Positions 2,843-48,825 of a DNA stretch of 64,000 nt are shown piece after piece. Location: NCBI GenBank assembly GCA_001858525.1, contig LAPX01000002.1:62001-126000 (forward strand), read 5' to 3'. Origin of the DNA: Vampirovibrio chlorellavorus. Its GTDB lineage: Bacteria; Cyanobacteriota; Vampirovibrionia; Vampirovibrionales; Vampirovibrionaceae. Within the stretch, counting starts at the first letter, position 1, and every line of letters starts with the position of its first letter. The position numbers and the translations under genes are program-made. The notes below the pieces were generated by a model. The model had not been told where the DNA came from. It made no database searches and saw nothing but the letters and a program-made list of their open reading frames with translations.

Positions 2843-2869
2843 TAAAGTTTTTCAAGCCGCCGCCGATAA
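2843..2869 (+). promoter_or_regulatory. Sigma-28 (FliA) promoter for pilin-like gene 1
   Basis: TAAAGTTT, 11 bases, then GCCGATAA: an exact match to the enterobacterial FliA consensus. It lies 40 bases before the start of the pilin-like gene at 2910. Confidence 0.85.
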
Positions 2870-2909
2870 GAAATCTACCTTCCAAAAGAAGCCTGTCTGG
2901 AGAATGTTC

Positions 2910-3509
2910 ATGCACCGCTTTACCAAGCTCCGAGCAACCCGGAGGATCTCCCTTGGTTTTACCCTGGCTGAATTGCTGATCAGCTTGGCCATTTTGGGGG
3001 TAATCGCCACTTTTACCATCCCTAAAATCCTAAGCACCCAGCAAGATTCCCGAAATAAAGCCATTGCCAAAGAAGTCGCCGCCATGATTTCAGAGGCGTA
3101 TCAGCAATATTCCGCATCAAACCAAGTAACGGCCAGCACCAAGGTGGGCGATTTAACGCCTTACATGAACTACGTAAGCACTGGTAACACGGCCATGATC
3201 AATGAAAACGGAGCATTACCAGTCGGCGCGAGTGTTTCCTGCTCATTATTCGGTGGGCAGTGTCTCTTGCTCCATAATGGCGCCAGATTATTAGTGGTGC
3301 CAAACATCAGTTTTTCCGGAACGGGCGCTTTAAACGCGCTCTGGTTTCACCTGGACCCTGATGGCACAGCCGATAATACCAACGCCGTTGTTTTCTTCCT
3401 CTATTACAACGGCAGAATCAAGTCCTACAGCACCATAGACCCCAACACCGTCAGTAGTGACTCTGTTCGAAGCGCAGCGGTCGATCCCAGCTGGTTTAGC
3501 TGGAATTAA
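2910..3509 (+). CDS. Type IV pilin/pseudopilin-like protein 1
   Basis: A prepilin-like protein of 199 residues. A short basic leader ends in SLG and is followed by FTLAELLISLAILGVIATF, the hydrophobic N-terminal helix of type IV pilins and type II secretion pseudopilins. Cleavage by a prepilin peptidase is expected after the Gly at residue 16, with Glu at +5. The C-terminal part has a Cys pair (SC..QC), LHNG, DPDG and a final WFSWN. I chose the second ATG: GGAG sits 7 bases before it but only 1 base before the ATG at 2904. It is first of three tandem paralogues, each with its own sigma-28 promoter. Exact role unknown: pilus subunit, pseudopilin or adhesin. Confidence 0.9.
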   Translation: MHRFTKLRATRRISLGFTLAELLISLAILGVIATFTIPKILSTQQDSRNKAIAKEVAAMISEAYQQYSASNQVTASTKVGDLTPYMNYVSTGNTAMINENGALPVGASVSCSLFGGQCLLLHNGARLLVVPNISFSGTGALNALWFHLDPDGTADNTNAVVFFLYYNGRIKSYSTIDPNTVSSDSVRSAAVDPSWFSWN

Positions 3510-3546
3510 AGGCAAACGGTTTTTCAGAAATTTGCCGATTTTGCTC

Positions 3547-3573
3547 TAAAGTTTTTCAAGCCTTCGCCGATAC
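3547..3573 (+). promoter_or_regulatory. Sigma-28 (FliA) promoter for pilin-like gene 2
   Basis: TAAAGTTT, 11 bases, then GCCGATAC. It lies between the first and second pilin-like genes. The leader after it is nearly identical to those of the other two genes. Confidence 0.83.
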
Positions 3574-3613
3574 TTAATCTACCTTCCAAAAGAAGCCTGT
3601 CTGGAGAATGTTC

Positions 3614-4234
3614 ATGCACCGCTTTCCCAAGCTCCGAGCAACCCGAAGGATCTCCCTTGGTTTTACCCTGGCTGAATTGCTGATCAGCCTGGCCATTCTG
3701 GGGGTCATCGCCACCTTCACCATCCCTAAAATATTGATAGCCCAGCAAAACAATGCGAACAACGCCAATGCCAAACAAATGGTGGCCGCGCTTAGTAACG
3801 CCTATCAAGCCTACTTACGGGATGGTGGCAGTAAAACCACCATGCGAACCAGCGATTTAACACCTTACCTCAATTACTTAAGTATAGATAACACCGTGAC
3901 GCTGGACGCACTTCAAACACAGGGAACCTTGGGGTGCCCTTATCAATGCCTCAAATTTCACAATGGCGGTGTTCTTTTCTATTGGTTAGATGGTTTATGC
4001 CCCGGCGCCAATGCTGCGGCGCCTTTCTTCTTCGATCCAGATGGAAAAATTACTGATGGAAGCACCAATGGCCCTGGAAAAACCCTGGCACTTTATCTCT
4101 ACAGCGATGGACGGGTTAAAACCAGTGCCACGATGGATACCGGAACCAACTGGAGCGCGGGCGGAGGCGGTACTTGCAACCTCAGCAGGAATCCCGACGC
4201 CAATTTAGACCCACCCTGGCTCAATTGGAACTAG
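3614..4234 (+). CDS. Type IV pilin/pseudopilin-like protein 2
   Basis: Second of three tandem prepilin-like proteins (206 residues). The leader and first 45 residues are almost identical to gene 1, including GFTLAELLIS. The C-terminal domain diverges but keeps a Cys pair (GCPYQC), HNGG, FDPDG, a glycine-rich stretch, and a Trp-containing end (PPWLNWN). Two further cysteines (LCPG, TCNL) are shared with gene 3 but not gene 1. DPDG resembles the acidic loops that bind calcium in some pseudopilins; that function is inference. The start follows the same logic as gene 1 (GGAG 7 bases upstream). Confidence 0.9.
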   Translation: MHRFPKLRATRRISLGFTLAELLISLAILGVIATFTIPKILIAQQNNANNANAKQMVAALSNAYQAYLRDGGSKTTMRTSDLTPYLNYLSIDNTVTLDALQTQGTLGCPYQCLKFHNGGVLFYWLDGLCPGANAAAPFFFDPDGKITDGSTNGPGKTLALYLYSDGRVKTSATMDTGTNWSAGGGGTCNLSRNPDANLDPPWLNWN

Positions 4235-4271
4235 GAGCAAACGGTTTTAAGAAAATTTGCCGATTCGGCTC

Positions 4272-4298
4272 TAAAGTTTTTCAAGCCTGCGCCGATAA
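4272..4298 (+). promoter_or_regulatory. Sigma-28 (FliA) promoter for pilin-like gene 3
   Basis: TAAAGTTT, 11 bases, then GCCGATAA: an exact consensus match, 40 bases before the gene start at 4339. Confidence 0.85.
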
Positions 4299-4338
4299 AT
4301 AATATACCTTCCCCAAAAAGCCTGCCTGGAGAATGTTC

Positions 4339-4962
4339 ATGCACCGCTTTCCCAAGCCCCATCCACGCCGAAAAATCTTCAGAGGCTTTACCCTGGCCGA
4401 ATTGCTCATCAGCTTAGCCATTCTGGGCGTCATTGCCACTTTTACCATCCCCAAAATCCTCAGCACCCAGCAGAATCAAAAATTTAACGCCGTTGCCAAA
4501 GAAACCGCTGCAATGATCTCCGGAGCTTATCAGGCCTATCAACTATCAGGCGCCAGTACCACCGTTATGAGAACCCAAGACTTAACCGCATATTTTAACT
4601 ATGCCAGCATCGATACCACATCCCAAGTGGATGATGTCCCGGGTGGTACCTCATTCAATTGCAATGGCGGTTTTCCTTGCTATCGCCTGCACAATGGGGG
4701 TGTCCTTTATTATTGGACAGATAATTTTTGTAATGGAACACCCACGGCCATTGCTTACGGATTTGATCCAGACGGTGTTTACAGCGGCACCACCAATGGT
4801 ACGGGAAAGGCAGTCCGATTTTTCCTATACAACAACGGCGGGCTCCGAACAGAAGGCACACTTTTAAGCAATACAGTCTGGAATAATACGGGGACAAGCA
4901 ACTGCAACTATAACCGAAGTGCCATTCCCGCCTCCGATCCCTCATGGTTTAGCTGGAATTAA
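4339..4962 (+). CDS. Type IV pilin/pseudopilin-like protein 3
   Basis: Third tandem prepilin-like protein (207 residues). It has the leader ending RGFTLAELLIS, then LHNGGVLYYW, GFDPDG, the Cys pair FNC..FPC and the same SWFSWN end as gene 1. It is closest to gene 2 in the middle (HNGGVL.YW, FC/LC, then DPDG and a TNG.GKA.. segment). It ends 8 bases before the end of ftsY, which runs in the opposite direction. No terminator is obvious between them. Confidence 0.9.
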   Translation: MHRFPKPHPRRKIFRGFTLAELLISLAILGVIATFTIPKILSTQQNQKFNAVAKETAAMISGAYQAYQLSGASTTVMRTQDLTAYFNYASIDTTSQVDDVPGGTSFNCNGGFPCYRLHNGGVLYYWTDNFCNGTPTAIAYGFDPDGVYSGTTNGTGKAVRFFLYNNGGLRTEGTLLSNTVWNNTGTSNCNYNRSAIPASDPSWFSWN

Positions 4963-13768: not shown

Positions 13769-14608
13769 CTAGCCTCGGAGTAACTGCAAGGCCAGCTGTG
13801 GCGCCTGGTTGGCCTGGGCCAACATAGCCTGAGAAGCCTGCTGGAGAATCTGGTTTCGGGCCAGGTTGGCACTCTCCATAGCCACGTCCACGTTGCGCAC
13901 CCTCGATTCGGAGGCCGAGGTATTTTCCACGTTGGTGGCCAGGTTCTGAGCCGTGTACTCCAGTCGATTGGTAAAGGCACCCAACTGCCCTCGGGCGGTG
14001 TTGATGGTATCGATGGCGGTATCTAGCAACGAAATGGCACTTTGAGCCGCACTGTGATTATCCAGAGAGGCCACAGTAATCCCCAAGGTACTGGCGGTCA
14101 CATCCGTCAAGGCACTGGTAATGTCCAAATCATCGGCATTGCCACCCTGGTTGGCTGTAATTTGTAATGTTAGGTTGGTCGGGCTGCTGGCATCCAGCAA
14201 GTGAATGCCGTTGAACTGAGCGGCCTGAGCCATCTGGGTGATACCGGAAGCAAGGGAATCATATTCAATCTGCATGGCCGAACGCTGAGCTGTACTATAG
14301 GTATCGTTGGCTGCCTGCACGGCCAGTTCCCGCATCCGCTGTACGGCATCGGTAATAGACTGGTAAGTACCATCGGCGATGTTCAGCATGTTGATACCAT
14401 CCTGAACGTTATCCAGTGCTTTTTGAGAACCCCGGATTTGCGCCCGCAATTTCTCGGAAACCTGCAAACCAGCAGCGTCATCCCCGGCCCGGTTAATGCG
14501 GTAACCGGAAGCCAGCTTTTCCATGGTTTTACCCAGGGCGCCGGTGTTGTTGCTTAAATAACGCTGAGCGTTCAGCGATGAAACGTTGGTGTTTACAACT
14601 AAAGGCAT
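13769..14608 (-). CDS. fliC: Flagellin 1
   Basis: Filament subunit of the flagellum (279 residues). It has the D0/D1 N-terminus (MPLVVNTNVSSLNAQRYL, SGYRINRAGDDAAGL, DGINMLNIADG, RMRELAVQAANDTYS) and the matching C-terminal helix ending QAPQLALQLLRG. Only a short central part lies between, so outer domains D2/D3 are lacking. I chose the ATG at 14608 (GGAG 8 bases upstream) over a longer frame. The central segment (TSALTDVTASTLGITVASLD) is almost the same as in flagellin 6, although the ends belong to a different group. It has its own sigma-28 promoter, a GGA-loop leader hairpin and a terminator. Confidence 0.96.
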   Translation of the reverse strand: MPLVVNTNVSSLNAQRYLSNNTGALGKTMEKLASGYRINRAGDDAAGLQVSEKLRAQIRGSQKALDNVQDGINMLNIADGTYQSITDAVQRMRELAVQAANDTYSTAQRSAMQIEYDSLASGITQMAQAAQFNGIHLLDASSPTNLTLQITANQGGNADDLDITSALTDVTASTLGITVASLDNHSAAQSAISLLDTAIDTINTARGQLGAFTNRLEYTAQNLATNVENTSASESRVRNVDVAMESANLARNQILQQASQAMLAQANQAPQLALQLLRG

Positions 14609-14668
14609 CGAAGTAACTCCTCTTTTTTTATACACTCACCAAAGCCAGCTCTGAAACAGCAGGCTTCG

Positions 14669-14792: not shown

Positions 14793-14819
14793 TATCGGAA
14801 GCCTAGTCTGAAAACTTTA
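14793..14819 (-). promoter_or_regulatory. Sigma-28 promoter of flagellin 1
   Basis: The minus strand reads TAAAGTTT, 13 bases, CCGATA. The leader would be about 180 bases. Confidence 0.82.
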
Positions 14820-15093: not shown

Positions 15094-15924
15094 CTATCCT
15101 CGCAGTAACTGCAAGGCCAGCTGTGGCGCCTGGTTGGCCTGAGCCAACATGGCCTGAGAGGCCTGCTGGAGGATCTGGTTTCGGGCCAGATTGGAACTCT
15201 CCATAGCCACGTCCACGTTTCGCACCCTCGATTCGGAAGCAGACGTGTTTTCCACGTTGGTGGCCAGGTTCTGAGCCGTGTACTCCAGTCGGTTGGTAAA
15301 GGCACCCAAGCGACCTCGGGCCGCGTTAATGGCATCCAGTGCGGAATCCAGCGTAGAAATGGCAGATTGCGCACTGGCGTGAGACAGCATTGAGCCAGTC
15401 AGCACCACACTGGTAATATCGATCAATGAACTGACGATATCCAGTTCATCAGCCGTGCCCCCTTGATTGGCTGTAATCTGCAATTCCAAAGTCGCAGGGG
15501 TGGAGGCATCCAGCAGGTGAATCCCGTTAAACTGAGCGGCCTGAGCCATCTGGCTAATACCAGATGACAAAGAATCATACTCAATTTGCATGGCGGATCG
15601 CTGGGCAGAACTGTAGGTATCGTTGGCTGCTTGCACGGCCAATTCCCGCATCCGCTGTACGGCATCGGTAATGGACTGGTAAGCACCATCGGCGATGTTC
15701 AGCATGTTGATACCATCCTGAACGTTATCCAGTGCTTTTTGAGAACCCCGGATTTGCGCCCGCAATTTCTCGGAGACCTGCAAACCAGCCGCGTCATCCC
15801 CGGCCCGGTTAATACGATACCCGGAAGCCAGCTTTTCCATGGTTTTACCAAGACCAGTGGTATTATTCGTTAAGTAACGCTGGGCATTCAGCGATGAAAC
15901 GTTGGTGTTTACAACTAAAGGCAT
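15094..15924 (-). CDS. fliC: Flagellin 2
   Basis: Flagellin of 276 residues with the same ends as flagellins 1, 3 and 4 (start MPLVVNTNVSS, end QAPQLALQLLRG). The central part differs: GGTADELDIVSSLIDITSVVLTGSM, then LSHASAQSAI and INAARGRLGAF. It shares the SMLSHASAQ.AI..LD.ALDAIN signature with flagellin 7, whose ends are of the other group. GGAG lies 8 bases before the ATG. It is a separate transcription unit with its own promoter, leader hairpin and terminator. Confidence 0.96.
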   Translation of the reverse strand: MPLVVNTNVSSLNAQRYLTNNTTGLGKTMEKLASGYRINRAGDDAAGLQVSEKLRAQIRGSQKALDNVQDGINMLNIADGAYQSITDAVQRMRELAVQAANDTYSSAQRSAMQIEYDSLSSGISQMAQAAQFNGIHLLDASTPATLELQITANQGGTADELDIVSSLIDITSVVLTGSMLSHASAQSAISTLDSALDAINAARGRLGAFTNRLEYTAQNLATNVENTSASESRVRNVDVAMESSNLARNQILQQASQAMLAQANQAPQLALQLLRG

Positions 15925-16109: not shown

Positions 16110-16136
16110 TATCGGCGAAGTACACCAAATACTTTA
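16110..16136 (-). promoter_or_regulatory. Sigma-28 promoter of flagellin 2
   Basis: The minus strand reads TAAAGTAT, 13 bases, CCGATA (preceded by G). Confidence 0.8.
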
Positions 16137-16431: not shown

Positions 16432-17274
16432 TTATCCTCGCAGCAACTGCAAGGCCAGCTGTGGTGCCTGGTTGGCCTGGGCCAACATAGCCTGAGAAGC
16501 CTGCTGGAGTATCTGGTTTCGGGCCAGGTTGGAACTCTCCGCGGCCACGTCCACGTTTCGCACCCTCGATTCGGAAGCCGAGGTGTTTTCCACGTTGGTG
16601 GCCAGGTTTTGTGCAGTGTACTCTAACCGGTTGGTATAAGCGCCCAATTGGCCTCGCGCCGCGTTCAAGTCATCGATTGCTGTATCCAGGAGAGCAATGG
16701 CACTTTGAGCCGCACTATGACCACTCAGCAATCCAGCGCCAATGGTACTGGCAATACCAGTCACATCGATCAAGGCACTGGCCACATCCAGATCATCGGC
16801 GTTGCCACCCTGGTTGGCCGTAATTTGTAAATTGATACCGCTGGTGGCATCGGTACCGTTCAACAAATTGAGGCCGTTGAACTGAGTCGCCTCTGCCATC
16901 TGGGTGATACCAGAAGCCAGAGAGTTGTACTCAATTTGCATCGCGGATCGCTGAGCGCTGCTGTAAGTATCGTTGGCTGCCTGCACGGCCAGTTCCCGCA
17001 TCCGTTGCACGGCATCGGTAATGGACTGGTAAGCACCATCGGCAATGTTCAGCATGTTGATGCCATCCTGAACGTTATCCAGCGCTTTTTGAGAACCCCG
17101 GATTTGCGCCCGCAATTTCTCGGAGACCTGCAAACCGGCGGCGTCATCACCGGCCCGGTTAATACGGTAACCGGAAGCCAGCTTTTCCATGGTTTTACCC
17201 AGGGCACCGGTGTTATTGGTCAAATACCGCTGAGCATTAATGGATGAAACGTTGGTATTAACAACTAAAGGCAT
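16432..17274 (-). CDS. fliC: Flagellin 3
   Basis: Flagellin of 280 residues with the same type of ends as flagellins 1, 2 and 4. The central segment is of another type: LLNGTDATSGINLQITANQGG, then ASALIDVTGIASTIGAGLLSG. It closely matches flagellin 5, which belongs to the other end group. The ATG at 17274 is preceded by GGAG with 5 bases between; an upstream GTG at 17280 is less likely. Own promoter, leader hairpin and terminator. Confidence 0.96.
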   Translation of the reverse strand: MPLVVNTNVSSINAQRYLTNNTGALGKTMEKLASGYRINRAGDDAAGLQVSEKLRAQIRGSQKALDNVQDGINMLNIADGAYQSITDAVQRMRELAVQAANDTYSSAQRSAMQIEYNSLASGITQMAEATQFNGLNLLNGTDATSGINLQITANQGGNADDLDVASALIDVTGIASTIGAGLLSGHSAAQSAIALLDTAIDDLNAARGQLGAYTNRLEYTAQNLATNVENTSASESRVRNVDVAAESSNLARNQILQQASQAMLAQANQAPQLALQLLRG

Positions 17275-17350
17275 AAGCACTCCTTTGATTGGTCAAACAA
17301 GCAAAAACCACCGTGACACACCCCCATTTGGCTGCATAACACGTTGCGCC

Positions 17351-17478: not shown

Positions 17479-17505
17479 TATCGGCAATCTACATTAAAAC
17501 CTTGA
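17479..17505 (-). promoter_or_regulatory. Sigma-28 promoter of flagellin 3 (weak -35)
   Basis: The minus strand reads TCAAGGTT, 12 bases, GCCGATAG. The -10 box is perfect and the -35 is degenerate. Confidence 0.65.
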
Positions 17506-17803: not shown

Positions 17804-18640
17804 CTATCCGCGCAGCAGCTGAAGGGCCAACTGCGGGGCCTGATTGGCTTGAGCCAACATGGCCTGGGAAGCTTGCTGGAGAATCTGATTTCGGGCCAGG
17901 TTGGAACTCTCCATGGCCACATCCACGTTGCGCACCCTCGATTCGGAGGCCGAGGTGTTCTCGATATTGGTGGCCAAATTCTGAGCCGCGTATTCCAAGC
18001 GATTAACAAAGGCTCCCAATTTTCCACGGGCCTCATTGACCGTATCCAGAGCGGCATCCATCACGGCAATGGCACTTTGAGCCGTCAAGTGACTACTCAA
18101 GTCACCGGCTACGGTCAGGGTAGCAGAAGTCATGTCATTGAGGGCGCTGGTAATATCCAGTTGATCGGCATTGCTGCCCTGATTGGCTGTAATTTGCAAA
18201 TTCAAACTGGTGGGGCTGCTGGCATCCAGCAAATGAATACCGTTGAACTGGGCCGCCTGAGCCATCTGGCTAATCCCAGAAGCCAAGGAGTTGTACTCAA
18301 TCTGCAAAGCTGATCGCTGAGCCGTGCTGTAGGTATCGTTGGCCGCCTGCACGGCCAGTTCCCGCATGCGTTGCAGAGAGTCGGTGATGGCCTGATAGGT
18401 ACCGTCGGCAATGTTCAGCATGTTCAAGCCATCCTGAACGTTATCCAGCGCTTTTTGAGAACCCCGAATTTGCGCCCGTAATTTTTCGGACACCTGCAAC
18501 CCGGCGGCGTCATCTCCGGCCCGGTTAATGCGATAACCGGAGGCCAGTTTCTCCATGGTCTTGCCCAGGGAACCGGTGTTGTTACTTAAATACCGCTGAG
18601 CGTTCAGCGATGAGACGTTGGTATTAATCACTAAAGGCAT
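17804..18640 (-). CDS. fliC: Flagellin 4
   Basis: Flagellin of 278 residues (start MPLVINTNVSSLNAQRYLSNN, end QAPQLALQLLRG). The central segment is unlike the other three types: GSNADQLDITSALNDMTSATLTVAGDLSSHLTAQ. It also has VNEARGKLGAFVNRLEYAAQN where the others have TARGQLGAFTNRLEYTAQN. GGAG is 12 bases from the ATG, longer than in its neighbours, which may lower translation. It is the last gene of the first end group. Confidence 0.96.
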   Translation of the reverse strand: MPLVINTNVSSLNAQRYLSNNTGSLGKTMEKLASGYRINRAGDDAAGLQVSEKLRAQIRGSQKALDNVQDGLNMLNIADGTYQAITDSLQRMRELAVQAANDTYSTAQRSALQIEYNSLASGISQMAQAAQFNGIHLLDASSPTSLNLQITANQGSNADQLDITSALNDMTSATLTVAGDLSSHLTAQSAIAVMDAALDTVNEARGKLGAFVNRLEYAAQNLATNIENTSASESRVRNVDVAMESSNLARNQILQQASQAMLAQANQAPQLALQLLRG

Positions 18641-18826: not shown

Positions 18827-18854
18827 CTTTCGACAGACTAGACCAAAAACTTTA
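18827..18854 (-). promoter_or_regulatory. Sigma-28 promoter of flagellin 4 (weak -10)
   Basis: The minus strand reads TAAAGTTT, 12 bases, GTCGAAAG. The -35 is perfect and the -10 is degenerate. Confidence 0.55.
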
Positions 18855-21088: not shown

Positions 21089-21916
21089 TTAACGCAGTAA
21101 ACTGAGGGCAATTTGAGGACTCTGATTGGCTTGGGCCAACATGGCCGAAGCCGCCTGCTGCAGGATCTGGTTTCGGGCCAGGTTGGAACTTTCTCGGGCC
21201 ACATCCACGTTTCGCAACCTGGATTCCGAAGCAGAGGTGTTCTCAAAGTTGGTGGCCAGATTTTGGCCAATGTAGTCCAGCCGGTTGGTGAATGCCCCCA
21301 ATCGACTTCGGGTTGAGTTAATGGCGTCTAGTGCCGTATCCAGCGTCTGGATGGCTGTTTGGGCACTGGCATGAGACAACATGGAGGCCGTAAAGGTAAT
21401 GCTGGTAATATCCATCAGACCGCTGATCACATCAAAATCGTCTGACGTTCCGCCTTGGTTGGCCGTAATCTGCAAATTCAAATTGGCGGGCGCCGAGGCA
21501 TCGAGTAAATGAATGCCGTTAAACTGGGCAGCCTGAGCCATTTGTGTAATGCCGGAAGACAAGGAATCATATTCGGTTTGCATGGCCGAGCGTTGCGCAC
21601 TACTGTAGGTGTCGTTGGAGGCCTGCACGGCCAATTCCCGCATCCGCTGTACGGCATCGGTGATGGATTGCATAGCCCCATCTGCGATGTTCAGCATGTT
21701 GATGCCATCCTGAACGTTATCCAGCGCCTTTTGAGAACCTCGAATCTGAGCCCGCATTTTTTCAGACATTTGCAAACCAGCGGCATCATCTCCGGATCGG
21801 TTGATGCGATACCCGGAAGACAATTTTTCCATGGTTTTACTGAGGTTATTGGTATTGCTGGTTAAATAACGCTGGGCATTCATGGCCCCCACGTTCGTAT
21901 TCACAATCAAAGGCAT
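21089..21916 (-). CDS. fliC: Flagellin 7
   Basis: Flagellin of 275 residues, second end group (MPLIVNTNVGAMNAQRYLTSN, NQSPQIALSLLR). It is the most divergent of that group in D1: RINRSGDDAAGLQMSEKMRAQ and RLDYIGQNLATNFENTSASESRLRNVDVARES. The central segment (GGTSDDFDVISGLMDITSITFTASM, LSHASAQTAI) is related to flagellin 2. I chose the ATG at 21916 (GGAG 7 bases upstream); the frame is open to 22003. It is first gene of the 7-6-(5) transcript, with a sigma-28 promoter upstream. Confidence 0.96.
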   Translation of the reverse strand: MPLIVNTNVGAMNAQRYLTSNTNNLSKTMEKLSSGYRINRSGDDAAGLQMSEKMRAQIRGSQKALDNVQDGINMLNIADGAMQSITDAVQRMRELAVQASNDTYSSAQRSAMQTEYDSLSSGITQMAQAAQFNGIHLLDASAPANLNLQITANQGGTSDDFDVISGLMDITSITFTASMLSHASAQTAIQTLDTALDAINSTRSRLGAFTNRLDYIGQNLATNFENTSASESRLRNVDVARESSNLARNQILQQAASAMLAQANQSPQIALSLLR

Positions 21917-21971
21917 TAATTTTCTCCTGTCCGTGCGCGATTGCAGCCCATTCCAATCCCCGTACAGCAAA

Positions 21972-21986
21972 AGCAAATCCATTGCC
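21972..21986 (-). promoter_or_regulatory. Leader hairpin with GGA loop (possible CsrA site), flagellin 7
   Basis: GGCAA pairs with TTGCT (one G-U) around the loop TGGAT, 56 bases before the ATG. The stem is short. Confidence 0.5.
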
Positions 21987-22127
21987 GTTGCCTGCCCAAG
22001 CATCCGGGCGACCGAGGCGGAAAGTTATCCTCATTTCGTGTGTGGTGAATAAATTACTACGTGCTTGAAGTGTGATCCGACAGACATAAATCTCCATCCA
22101 ATGGTGGAAATATATGCTTGTGCCTCC

Positions 22128-22154
22128 TATCGGTAGAGGAGATCTAAAACTTTA
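22128..22154 (-). promoter_or_regulatory. Sigma-28 promoter of the flagellin 7-6-(5) unit
   Basis: The minus strand reads TAAAGTTT, 13 bases, CCGATA. Confidence 0.83.
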
Positions 22155-46323: not shown

Positions 46324-46350
46324 TAAAGTTCTTAAAAATGCGGCCGATAA
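46324..46350 (+). promoter_or_regulatory. Sigma-28 (FliA) promoter of a predicted small RNA
   Basis: TAAAGTTC, 11 bases, GCCGATAA: one mismatch from the consensus in a region without a downstream plus-strand gene. Confidence 0.8.
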
Positions 46351-46550: not shown

Positions 46551-48743
46551 CTAAACCTGCACAATAATATCCAATTCGCCCTTACGATTTCGCACATCCA
46601 CCGTCACGCTCTGGTGGTTGCGCCGAAATTCCAGATCCACCATAGCATTGCCCACACGCATATTATTAATTTGCAGGTATGACATGTAATGGGGCAAGCT
46701 GGGCGAATGGATAGACAGCGTCTTGCGAGGCGCATCGGCCCGCATATTGAGCATGGACTGAATGATGGAATACATGGCCGCTGCCGCCCAGGCTTGGGGA
46801 ATACAGGAAACCGCATAACGCACCGGCGGATCACCCTCTTTGCCGTCCTCCTTGCGGAATCCGCAAAACAGTTCCGGCAAACGCCGATAATGCATGTGCC
46901 GGGCCGCCTCAAATAACCCGGTAAAAAGGCGCTCTACCAAGTCTGGCCGGTTCAGCCGGGCAAACCCCCGGGCGATTAAAGCATTGTCATGCGGCCAAAT
47001 AGAGCCGTTGTGATAGCTCATGGGGTTATACGCCACCGTGTTGGAACTGAGCGTGCGGATGCCCCAGCCATTGAACAAATCCGCGGACATAAGCCGGTTG
47101 ATGGCCTGATCGGCGTGATTCTCATAAAACAGTCCGGTTTCCAGACAATGACCCGGATTGGAAGCGATGACCCGAAAGGGCTTGCCCGCCTCATCCAGGG
47201 CCAGCGCGCAGTACTCTAAATCATCCATCCAGAAATGGATGTTAAAACGCTTGCGAAAGTCAACGCACTCCTGCCTCAATCGCTGCCGCAACTCTTTATC
47301 ATCCATATAATCGGCCAAACGGGCCATATGCGTTTTGGCCATGTACACATACCCCTGCACTTCAGACAGGGCAATGGGGGGCTGACCGATCACCCCAAAC
47401 TCATCCATCACACTGTCGTGAGAATCCTTCCAGCCCTGCTGCAAAATACCCCGAGCGCACATGGTGCGGTAGGTGCTAAACCCCAGCGAGTGCTTGCGCA
47501 GGTTCTCATCAATCCAATTCAGGGCAGCCAGTGCGTTGGGCCATAAGGCGCACAGCAACTCCCGGTCGTTGGTCCAGCGAAAGTACTCGTACAAGGTAAT
47601 GATAAACAAGGGGGTAGAATCCACGCTGCCGTAATAGGGCGTATGCGGAATTTCGCCCAGACGGGCCAGCTCCCCCACCCGCAATTCGTGCAAAATCTTG
47701 CCGGGCTCCTCATCCCGATGGGCGTTGTTTTCCTGCCCCTGGTACTTGGCCAGAATTTTCAGGGATTCCCGAGCCACTGTGGGATTGTACAACAAGGCAA
47801 ACCGGGACGTAATCAGGGAGTCTCGTCCAAATAAAGCCACATACCAGGGAATCCCAGCGGCCACGTAACTGCCCTCATCGGTATGGGTCATCAACATCTG
47901 CATGTCTTTCTGATTCCGGGACATCATTTCGTTAAAATCCTCGTTGTCAGAAACAAAGACCGCGGTATCCTGAATGTTTTTACGCGCCCTGAAATTCAGG
48001 TGAACCAGGGCTTCATCCATGGTTTGCACGCTGGCCTCAATGGTCCCGGCATTCATCATGCGATCGTTAATAATGGTTCGAATTTCGTAGTTAAAGTTCA
48101 AGGGATGTCGGGGCTTCAGCAAGGTACGATAAATGACGGTGGGCAAGTCCTGGGCAGGCATTTCCTCCGGCGCCAGATCCACAAAACGAATCCCCGTTTG
48201 CAAATTACGCCCGCTACGATCCTTGCAGCCAAAAATCAGTACCGGATTTTGCCCGCTGGTATCCATAATGGGCGGCCGCTTTTGCAATGGGGGCATCTCC
48301 ACAATGCCACGAATGTCAAACATATCCCGAAAATCCGCGTCAAACGTCAGGCTCAGCTCGATGTAAACGGGCTTGCAATAGTAGCTGACCAACCAAAAGC
48401 GTTCAAACTGGTGCCCATATAACACCGTTTCCCGCTTCAGCTGAATACTCTCCGGGGGAAGCGTCACCGGGGTGCCGTCCTCCGTGGCCGTCTCAATCGG
48501 CCCGTTGGTAAACACAATGGTGGACATATACCCCATTTCCGTGGAAGAGAGCAACGGAATGGGATCGGTGCCATGCAGCTTGATTTCAAAACAGCTTAAA
48601 AAACGGGTATCCAAATGGTACATGCCCAGCCCGGACATATCCCCGCGCGGGATATTTCCCTGCAAATCATCCACCAGGTACAAGTGGTTGTGCTTGATGG
48701 TGCGATTTCTGGATAAAAAATCCTCGGGCTGTTTAATCTGCAT
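46551..48743 (-). CDS. Glycogen debranching enzyme-like protein (amylo-alpha-1,6-glucosidase family)
   Basis: A large enzyme of 730 residues. The N-terminal domain (about 1-230) begins KHNHLYLVDDLQGNIPRGDMSGLGMYHLDTRFLS, the start of the N-terminal glycogen-debranching domain. The C-terminal (alpha/alpha)6 barrel contains AGIPWYVALFGRDSLITSR, YYGSVDSTPLFI, GWKDSHDSVMDEFG, SNPGHCLETGLF and YHNGSIWPHDNALIARGF, as in the bacterial amylo-alpha-1,6-glucosidase group. It likely trims branched glucans or related sugars. I chose the ATG at 48743 with GAGAG upstream. A glycosyltransferase lies just upstream, so they may form an operon. Confidence 0.85.
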   Translation of the reverse strand: MQIKQPEDFLSRNRTIKHNHLYLVDDLQGNIPRGDMSGLGMYHLDTRFLSCFEIKLHGTDPIPLLSSTEMGYMSTIVFTNGPIETATEDGTPVTLPPESIQLKRETVLYGHQFERFWLVSYYCKPVYIELSLTFDADFRDMFDIRGIVEMPPLQKRPPIMDTSGQNPVLIFGCKDRSGRNLQTGIRFVDLAPEEMPAQDLPTVIYRTLLKPRHPLNFNYEIRTIINDRMMNAGTIEASVQTMDEALVHLNFRARKNIQDTAVFVSDNEDFNEMMSRNQKDMQMLMTHTDEGSYVAAGIPWYVALFGRDSLITSRFALLYNPTVARESLKILAKYQGQENNAHRDEEPGKILHELRVGELARLGEIPHTPYYGSVDSTPLFIITLYEYFRWTNDRELLCALWPNALAALNWIDENLRKHSLGFSTYRTMCARGILQQGWKDSHDSVMDEFGVIGQPPIALSEVQGYVYMAKTHMARLADYMDDKELRQRLRQECVDFRKRFNIHFWMDDLEYCALALDEAGKPFRVIASNPGHCLETGLFYENHADQAINRLMSADLFNGWGIRTLSSNTVAYNPMSYHNGSIWPHDNALIARGFARLNRPDLVERLFTGLFEAARHMHYRRLPELFCGFRKEDGKEGDPPVRYAVSCIPQAWAAAAMYSIIQSMLNMRADAPRKTLSIHSPSLPHYMSYLQINNMRVGNAMVDLEFRRNHQSVTVDVRNRKGELDIIVQV

Positions 48744-48825
48744 GGCGCTCTCTTTCGGGAACAAGTTGGGCACAAGGCGGTATGGACCATACTGGATTCA
48801 CCGCCAACGGGTCAAAAGCCCCCAA

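Follow-up and report, generated by a model that had tools for sequence, protein, structure and literature searches.

Three tandem prepilin genes and their promoters

The window, which is the whole 64,000-nt stretch of DNA analysed (G000:C14:62001-126000, in a genome of 3.03 Mb), contains three tandem genes encoding prepilin-like proteins on the plus strand. Gene 1 (2904-3509) encodes a 201 aa protein that runs from GFTLAELLISLAILGVIATFTIPK to DPSWFSWN, and genes 2 (3608-4234) and 3 (4333-4962) encode proteins of 208 and 209 aa, respectively. All three exceed the Pfam cut-off for N_methyl (E 1.4e-5, 1.6e-5 and 1.4e-6) and carry a methylation motif of the GFTLxE type (G-F-T-L-x-E) with a hydrophobic helix. 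Each gene is preceded by an exact match to a sigma-28-type promoter, TAAAGTTT-N11-GCCGATA (2843-2868, 3547-3572 and 4272-4297, all plus strand), and in each case the ATG is found 35 nt after the end of the site. This agrees with the first-pass annotation, which had reported the same motif with equal spacing and an almost identical leader before the three genes. The tandem period is 704/725 bp. Identity among the copies is 79-96% over the promoter, leader and first 45 codons and falls to 42-51% in the remainder. On this comparison the genes are tandem copies in which the 5' cassette has stayed constant and the 3' part has diverged. Because they are tandem duplicates, the three promoters were treated as one event and not as independent examples.

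No further exact copy of the promoter pattern was found in the whole window. When up to three mismatches were allowed, there were 7 matches, compared with 1.22 +/- 1.06 in shuffled sequence, and none of 100 shuffles reached 7. An AlphaFold model of a window prepilin includes a helix at residues 21-71, with an overall pLDDT of only 65.7, and a Foldseek search using this poor model returned zero significant matches, with the minor pilin FimU among the weak ones. From the flanking ORFs, we read the cluster as lying between ffh and ftsY, an identification that for FtsY rests on relatives; the protein is 79% identical to the FtsY of a metagenome-assembled Vampirovibrio chlorellavorus genome, which places the genome with the window in the Vampirovibrionales. 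In a search that had no positive control, none of 80 named loci in relatives had prepilins beside ftsY. A long run of GTCGGC/GGAGTC-type repeats is also found in the window, at about 490-740, and on the minus strand it encodes a Pro-Thr-like repeat in an ORF that apparently starts near 969.

Flagellin genes and other genes downstream of similar sites

Five of the flagellin genes in the window, all on the minus strand, have a similar site. Four were identified by Pfam Flagellin_N/C matches (13769-14635, 15094-15924, 16432-17280 and 17804-18640) and the fifth (21089-22003) by a PF00669 match at G000:C14:83494-83904; the first is presumed to belong to the same regulon as the prepilin genes. The site scan placed a promoter upstream of each, namely TAAAGTTT-N12-TCCGATA (14793-14819), TAAAGTAT-N12-GCCGATA (16110-16136), TCAAGGTT-N12-GCCGATA (17479-17505), TAAAGTTT-N12-GTCGAAA (18828-18854) and TAAAGTTT-N12-ACCGATA (22128-22154), all on the minus strand. 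These five are of the sigma-28 type and have one to a few mismatches and a 12-nt spacer. The suggestion that the flagellin genes use the promoter type of the prepilins therefore holds for the type of promoter but not for its spacing, which is 12 nt at the flagellins and 11 nt at the prepilins.

In the remainder of the genome, a sigma-28-like site with an 11-nt spacer precedes the gene for FliS. Genes for TadE, a Flp-like pilin, an OmpA-domain protein and several unknown proteins are also downstream of such sites, as is a minor-pilin operon at C3:70048. The OmpA-domain protein resembles MotB, and the OmpA domain is the only domain detected in it. Lone sites with two mismatches may be due to chance, as the control rate predicts about 12 of them genome-wide.

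One site in the window with a single mismatch, TAAAGTTC-N11-GCCGATA at 46324-46349 on the plus strand, has no ORF of at least 60 aa starting on the same strand within 320 nt downstream, and faces the end of a minus-strand ORF (46551-48773). Elsewhere in the genome, a gene that follows a sigma-28-like site (L100:1342-2661, G000:C26:40841-42160) lies 5' of two minor-prepilin genes (C26:43954 and 44885). Its product includes a partial arabinofuranosidase-type domain (E 2e-11) and is possibly a pilus-associated protein that acts on or binds sugars.

Genome-wide association of the sites with prepilin genes

The genome-wide work was done on stretches around matches. In the genome that includes the window, the promoter pattern was found 72 times at up to two mismatches, compared with 12 times for a reversed control pattern, and 15 of the 23 sites with at most one mismatch are directly upstream of prepilin genes. 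The 300 bp upstream of each N_methyl match were then scored for a site with at least 12 of 15 positions matching, with 200 permuted motifs as the control. Of 48 prepilins, 36 had a site at this threshold and 28 at a threshold of at least 13, whereas the permuted motifs gave means of 0.88 (maximum 6) and 0.06, respectively. When the genes were collapsed to separate loci, 25 of 30 had a site. The spacer is 11 nt in nearly all cases, with 12 nt in one prepilin. The two boxes have mean conservation of 1.65 and 1.53 bits per position and the spacer and flanks 0.23-0.33; the values for the boxes are inflated, since sites were picked by their similarity to the consensus, but the contrast with decoys is not. 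A chance origin of the sites was ruled out by the shuffles and permuted motifs.

A single paralogous family, with proteins that contain GFTLAELLISLAILGVIATFTIPK and mostly end near DPSWFSWN, makes up 39 of the 48 prepilins. The site is present in 33 of these 39, against 3 of the 9 other prepilins (p 0.004). No sigma-28-like site was found upstream of the classical PilA-like gene (C23:263160, 141 aa). Some prepilin genes with no site are close downstream of one that has a site, for example C3:68935 after C3:69874, which suggests that they may be operon members.

Prepilin promoters in related genomes

The Vampirovibrionales are non-photosynthetic relatives of the Cyanobacteria. The best-known Vampirovibrio relative preys on algae, and Vampirovibrio was formerly classified in Bdellovibrio.

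A pattern combining the site with GFTLAE was used to search 146 genomes of the class, and matches were found in four genomes of the genus only, with none for the control. This combined pattern is too strict for other families, and upstream regions were therefore scored instead. In the V. chlorellavorus Umea1 genome (G037), 21 of 43 prepilins had a site (decoys, 0.64), and in a genome from another family of the order (G020) the figure was 26 of 33 (decoys, 0.67), with both the 11-nt and the 12-nt spacer in use. Genomes with few prepilins gave 6 of 25. The pattern of sigma-28-like promoters ahead of prepilin genes is supported as both genome-wide and order-wide.

Flagellins were detected in only four families (f1, f2, f3 and f5) among the class genomes searched. 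Family f6, which we infer to be a gut lineage resembling the Gastranaerophilales, encodes a FliA/WhiG protein over the cut-off, yet no flagellin was found, and FliA therefore survives there without detected flagellins. In two f6 genomes with 55 and 70 prepilins, none of the 36 prepilins scored had a sigma-28-like site.

In these two genomes (G004 and G022; L334-L360 and L424-L439), TATAAT was found upstream of 23 of the 36 prepilins (6.4 in shuffled sequence), and a tract of at least 8 G or C (about ten), roughly 45-105 nt before GFTL, was also present in 23 of the 36. These upstream regions look like phase-variable promoters of the sigma-70 type. At other f6 loci (L266-L269, L279, L280, L288, L291, L292 and L297), FliA/WhiG is retained, and several genomes have a sigma-28-like site before a conserved 90-aa protein (MLRDTLEMNIKR... 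or similar).

Repeat tracts and reading frame

In many prepilin genes a non-triplet tract adjoins the start codon, in the interval from the promoter to the GFTL motif. Among genes with a site, tracts are found in 9 of 36 in the genome that includes the window (C9 to C26, and tetranucleotides) and in 18 of 26 in G020 (heptamers and one octamer); those in G037 are poly-C. In G020 (L324, L397, L398, L400-L404, L408-L418, L420 and L423), 4-13 copies of the heptamer (or, in one gene, octamer) are found just after the start codon. As background, only 4 of 426 segments of 150 nt from the window contained any such tract, and all four were A8 or T8.

An in-frame start ahead of the tract was missing in 22 of the 34 site-bearing genes with a tract, compared with 1 of the 49 with no tract (p 1.5e-10); random frames would place two thirds out of frame. 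For G020 taken separately, the out-of-frame count is 14 among the 18 genes with both a site and repeats. Tract lengths are taken from single, mostly metagenomic assemblies, in which poly-C lengths can be wrong. The bias in frame has the appearance of a signature of phase variation, and the repeat-bearing prepilins are probably phase-variable. As none of the three window genes includes a tract, this applies to the family and not to those three genes. Our literature search, which had incomplete coverage, yielded no account of phase variation for the class.

Sigma factors and a candidate anti-sigma factor

Four candidates close to the sigma-28 groups are encoded in the genome (L063, L064, L065 and L068). 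L064 is the only one over the cut-offs for both FliA_WhiG (246.7 bits against 189.6) and FliA. It matches Escherichia coli FliA (6PMI) with an E value of 2.7e-51 (178 bits), and its best match among solved structures is the WhiG of the WhiG-RsiG structures (6PFV, 213 bits). In the alignment with 6PMI, 20 of 35 residues are retained across region 2.4 (TYAV.RIRG...D.LR..DW.PR.VRR) and 17 of 30 in region 4.2 (ESR..QLH.QA..RLR). Judged by these matches, L064 is a true FliA/WhiG sigma factor with conserved promoter-reading regions. There are thus at least two further, divergent sigma-28-like proteins (L065 and L068), and L063 is closest to the cyanobacterial SigF. A candidate for FlgM only just passes its cut-off of 25, with a score of 25.2, and lacks a sigma-28-like site of its own. 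What marks a sigma-28 regulon at the sequence level was found here, namely a promoter resembling TAAAGTTT-N11-GCCGATAA, a cognate FliA, and late flagellar genes (five flagellins and FliS) that share the promoter.

Discussion

The explanation we favour, with a probability of roughly 0.8, is that the three window genes belong to a large family of prepilins under the control of sigma-28 promoters read by a FliA/WhiG-type sigma factor, together with the flagellins, FliS and probably Tad/Flp pilus genes, and that slippage would move many of the paralogs into and out of frame. Once released at a late stage of flagellar assembly, FliA would transcribe the flagellin genes and the prepilin family jointly; by analogy with other bacteria, its release may occur through export of FlgM. 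The prepilins would then be made once FliA is active, in motile swarmer or attack cells, and, after processing by prepilin peptidase, would presumably be incorporated in filaments resembling type IV pili or attached to them. Strand slippage at the start-codon repeats would shift many members of the family in or out of frame; the three in the window are not among them. Since the repeats should have this effect, FliA may set the timing for the family while slippage picks its members in each cell. The first-pass annotation had proposed that the surface proteins are made together with the late flagellar genes, and joint expression does appear to be the best reading because the sites are found at prepilins throughout the genome and the order. 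The literature search found no transcriptome, start-site or fliA-mutant data for Vampirovibrio.

The prepilin promoters might instead be read by another group-3 sigma factor, either the SigF-like L063 or L065/L068, and so be uncoupled from flagellar assembly. L063 is nearest to the cyanobacterial SigF, which drives pilA in Synechocystis and Nostoc (PMC2758279, PMC6495340), L065 and L068 could share work with L064 along with it, and the spacer in the window differs between flagellins (12 nt) and prepilins (11 nt). Against this, the FliS site has an 11-nt spacer, one prepilin has 12 nt and the prepilins of G020 use both. Only L064 passes the cut-offs and retains the region 2.4 and 4.2 residues, and the core promoter of SigF, TAGGC/GGTAA (PMC2758279), is unlike TAAAGTTT/GCCGATA. 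We consider this reading unlikely. SigF control of the kind known for pilA in photosynthetic cyanobacteria was rejected, as the TAGGC/GGTAA promoter is absent at the window sites. A further explanation, already disfavoured and in our estimate very improbable, is that the sites are passengers of duplication from one ancestral prepilin gene and its upstream region, in which case their similarity would be uninformative on function. The window copies are indeed tandem duplicates with 5' regions 79-96% identical, but elsewhere the boxes are kept (about 1.6 bits) in spite of divergence in the spacer and flanks (0.2-0.3 bits). The site is found at 25 of 30 loci, the pattern also occurs in another family, and unrelated genes (FliS, the flagellins, TadE and the minor-pilin operon at C3:70048) share it.

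It is close to an even question whether the FliA-driven proteins are not attachment pili at all and instead take the role of pseudopilins or minor pilins in the motile phase, where they would function in secretion, DNA uptake or the sensing of prey. Proteins of about 200 aa with a conserved 25-residue N-terminus and a divergent C-terminal domain would suit such roles, the classical PilA-like gene (C23:263160, 141 aa) has no site, and the FliA-driven flp pilins of Bdellovibrio are required for predation and not for adhesion (PMC5430801). Nothing counts directly against this possibility, which the data do not separate from adhesion, and the favoured explanation could hold alongside it as far as regulation is concerned. 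Use of the prepilins in contact with prey or a host is the least certain element of that explanation, and we propose it tentatively. We put at slightly better than even the broader picture in which the flagellar sigma factor sets the timing and slipping repeats randomise a repertoire of about 40 prepilins, giving every swimming predator a pilin combination of its own, while in cousin genomes with no detected flagellins a family of the same kind has G10 tracts and TATAAT boxes instead of sigma-28 sites.

If the favoured explanation is true, the FliA regulon extends from flagella to a large repertoire of surface proteins in the flagellated sister group of the photosynthetic Cyanobacteria, in parallel with the role of FliA in the attack phase of Bdellovibrio. 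It would also tie swimming to prey contact through pili in a way that can be tested, and would add a likely example of pilin phase variation beyond the well-studied pathogens. Cells of V. chlorellavorus bear a single polar flagellum, and thick bundles of pili are found close to it (PMC4451040).

Comparison with known systems

The first-pass annotation had also stated that pilins normally stand outside the FliA regulon, which is too strong in view of the precedents in Bdellovibrio (Tad/flp; PMC5430801) and in Rubrobacter and Actinoplanes (type IV pili; PMC8325347). In Bdellovibrio, FliA controls a Tad/flp (type IVb) operon whose pilins are required for predation and dispensable for adhesion (PMC5430801). 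The likeness to the arrangement proposed here is that a flagellar sigma factor drives both pilins and flagellins in a predator, with the canonical PilA outside the FliA set in both cases (PMC5430801). However, the pilins in Bdellovibrio are few and come from one Tad operon, whereas here there are dozens of scattered N_methyl genes with their own promoters, many with repeats, in the cyanobacterial phylum. The type IV pili of Actinoplanes zoospores and the WhiG-RsiG pilus switch of Rubrobacter are both controlled by sigma factors of the flagellar clade (PMC8325347), and share with the present case such a sigma factor and a TAAA/GCCGATAA promoter on type IV pilus genes; in Actinoplanes the targets also include flagella. 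The Rubrobacter promoters serve operons of the pil cluster (PMC8325347), while the genome examined here has a marginal FlgM candidate.

The SigF-pilA system of cyanobacteria is similar in that a group-3 sigma factor drives pilin genes in the same phylum, but it belongs to the SigB/SigF branch, uses the TAGGC/GGTAA promoter and is found in organisms with no flagella (PMC2758279, PMC6495340). The tetranucleotide loci of Haemophilus and those of Neisseria also have non-triplet repeats at the 5' end of genes for surface proteins (PMC2651432, PMC5084427). Here, the family consists of prepilins probably under a flagellar sigma factor, about two thirds of the repeat genes are out of frame, and switching is a prediction from the repeats. 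Control of pili by FliA-type sigma factors was already known, and what we judge to be new is the scale, with dozens of scattered genes that have their own promoters, together with the clade in which they are found and the repeats.
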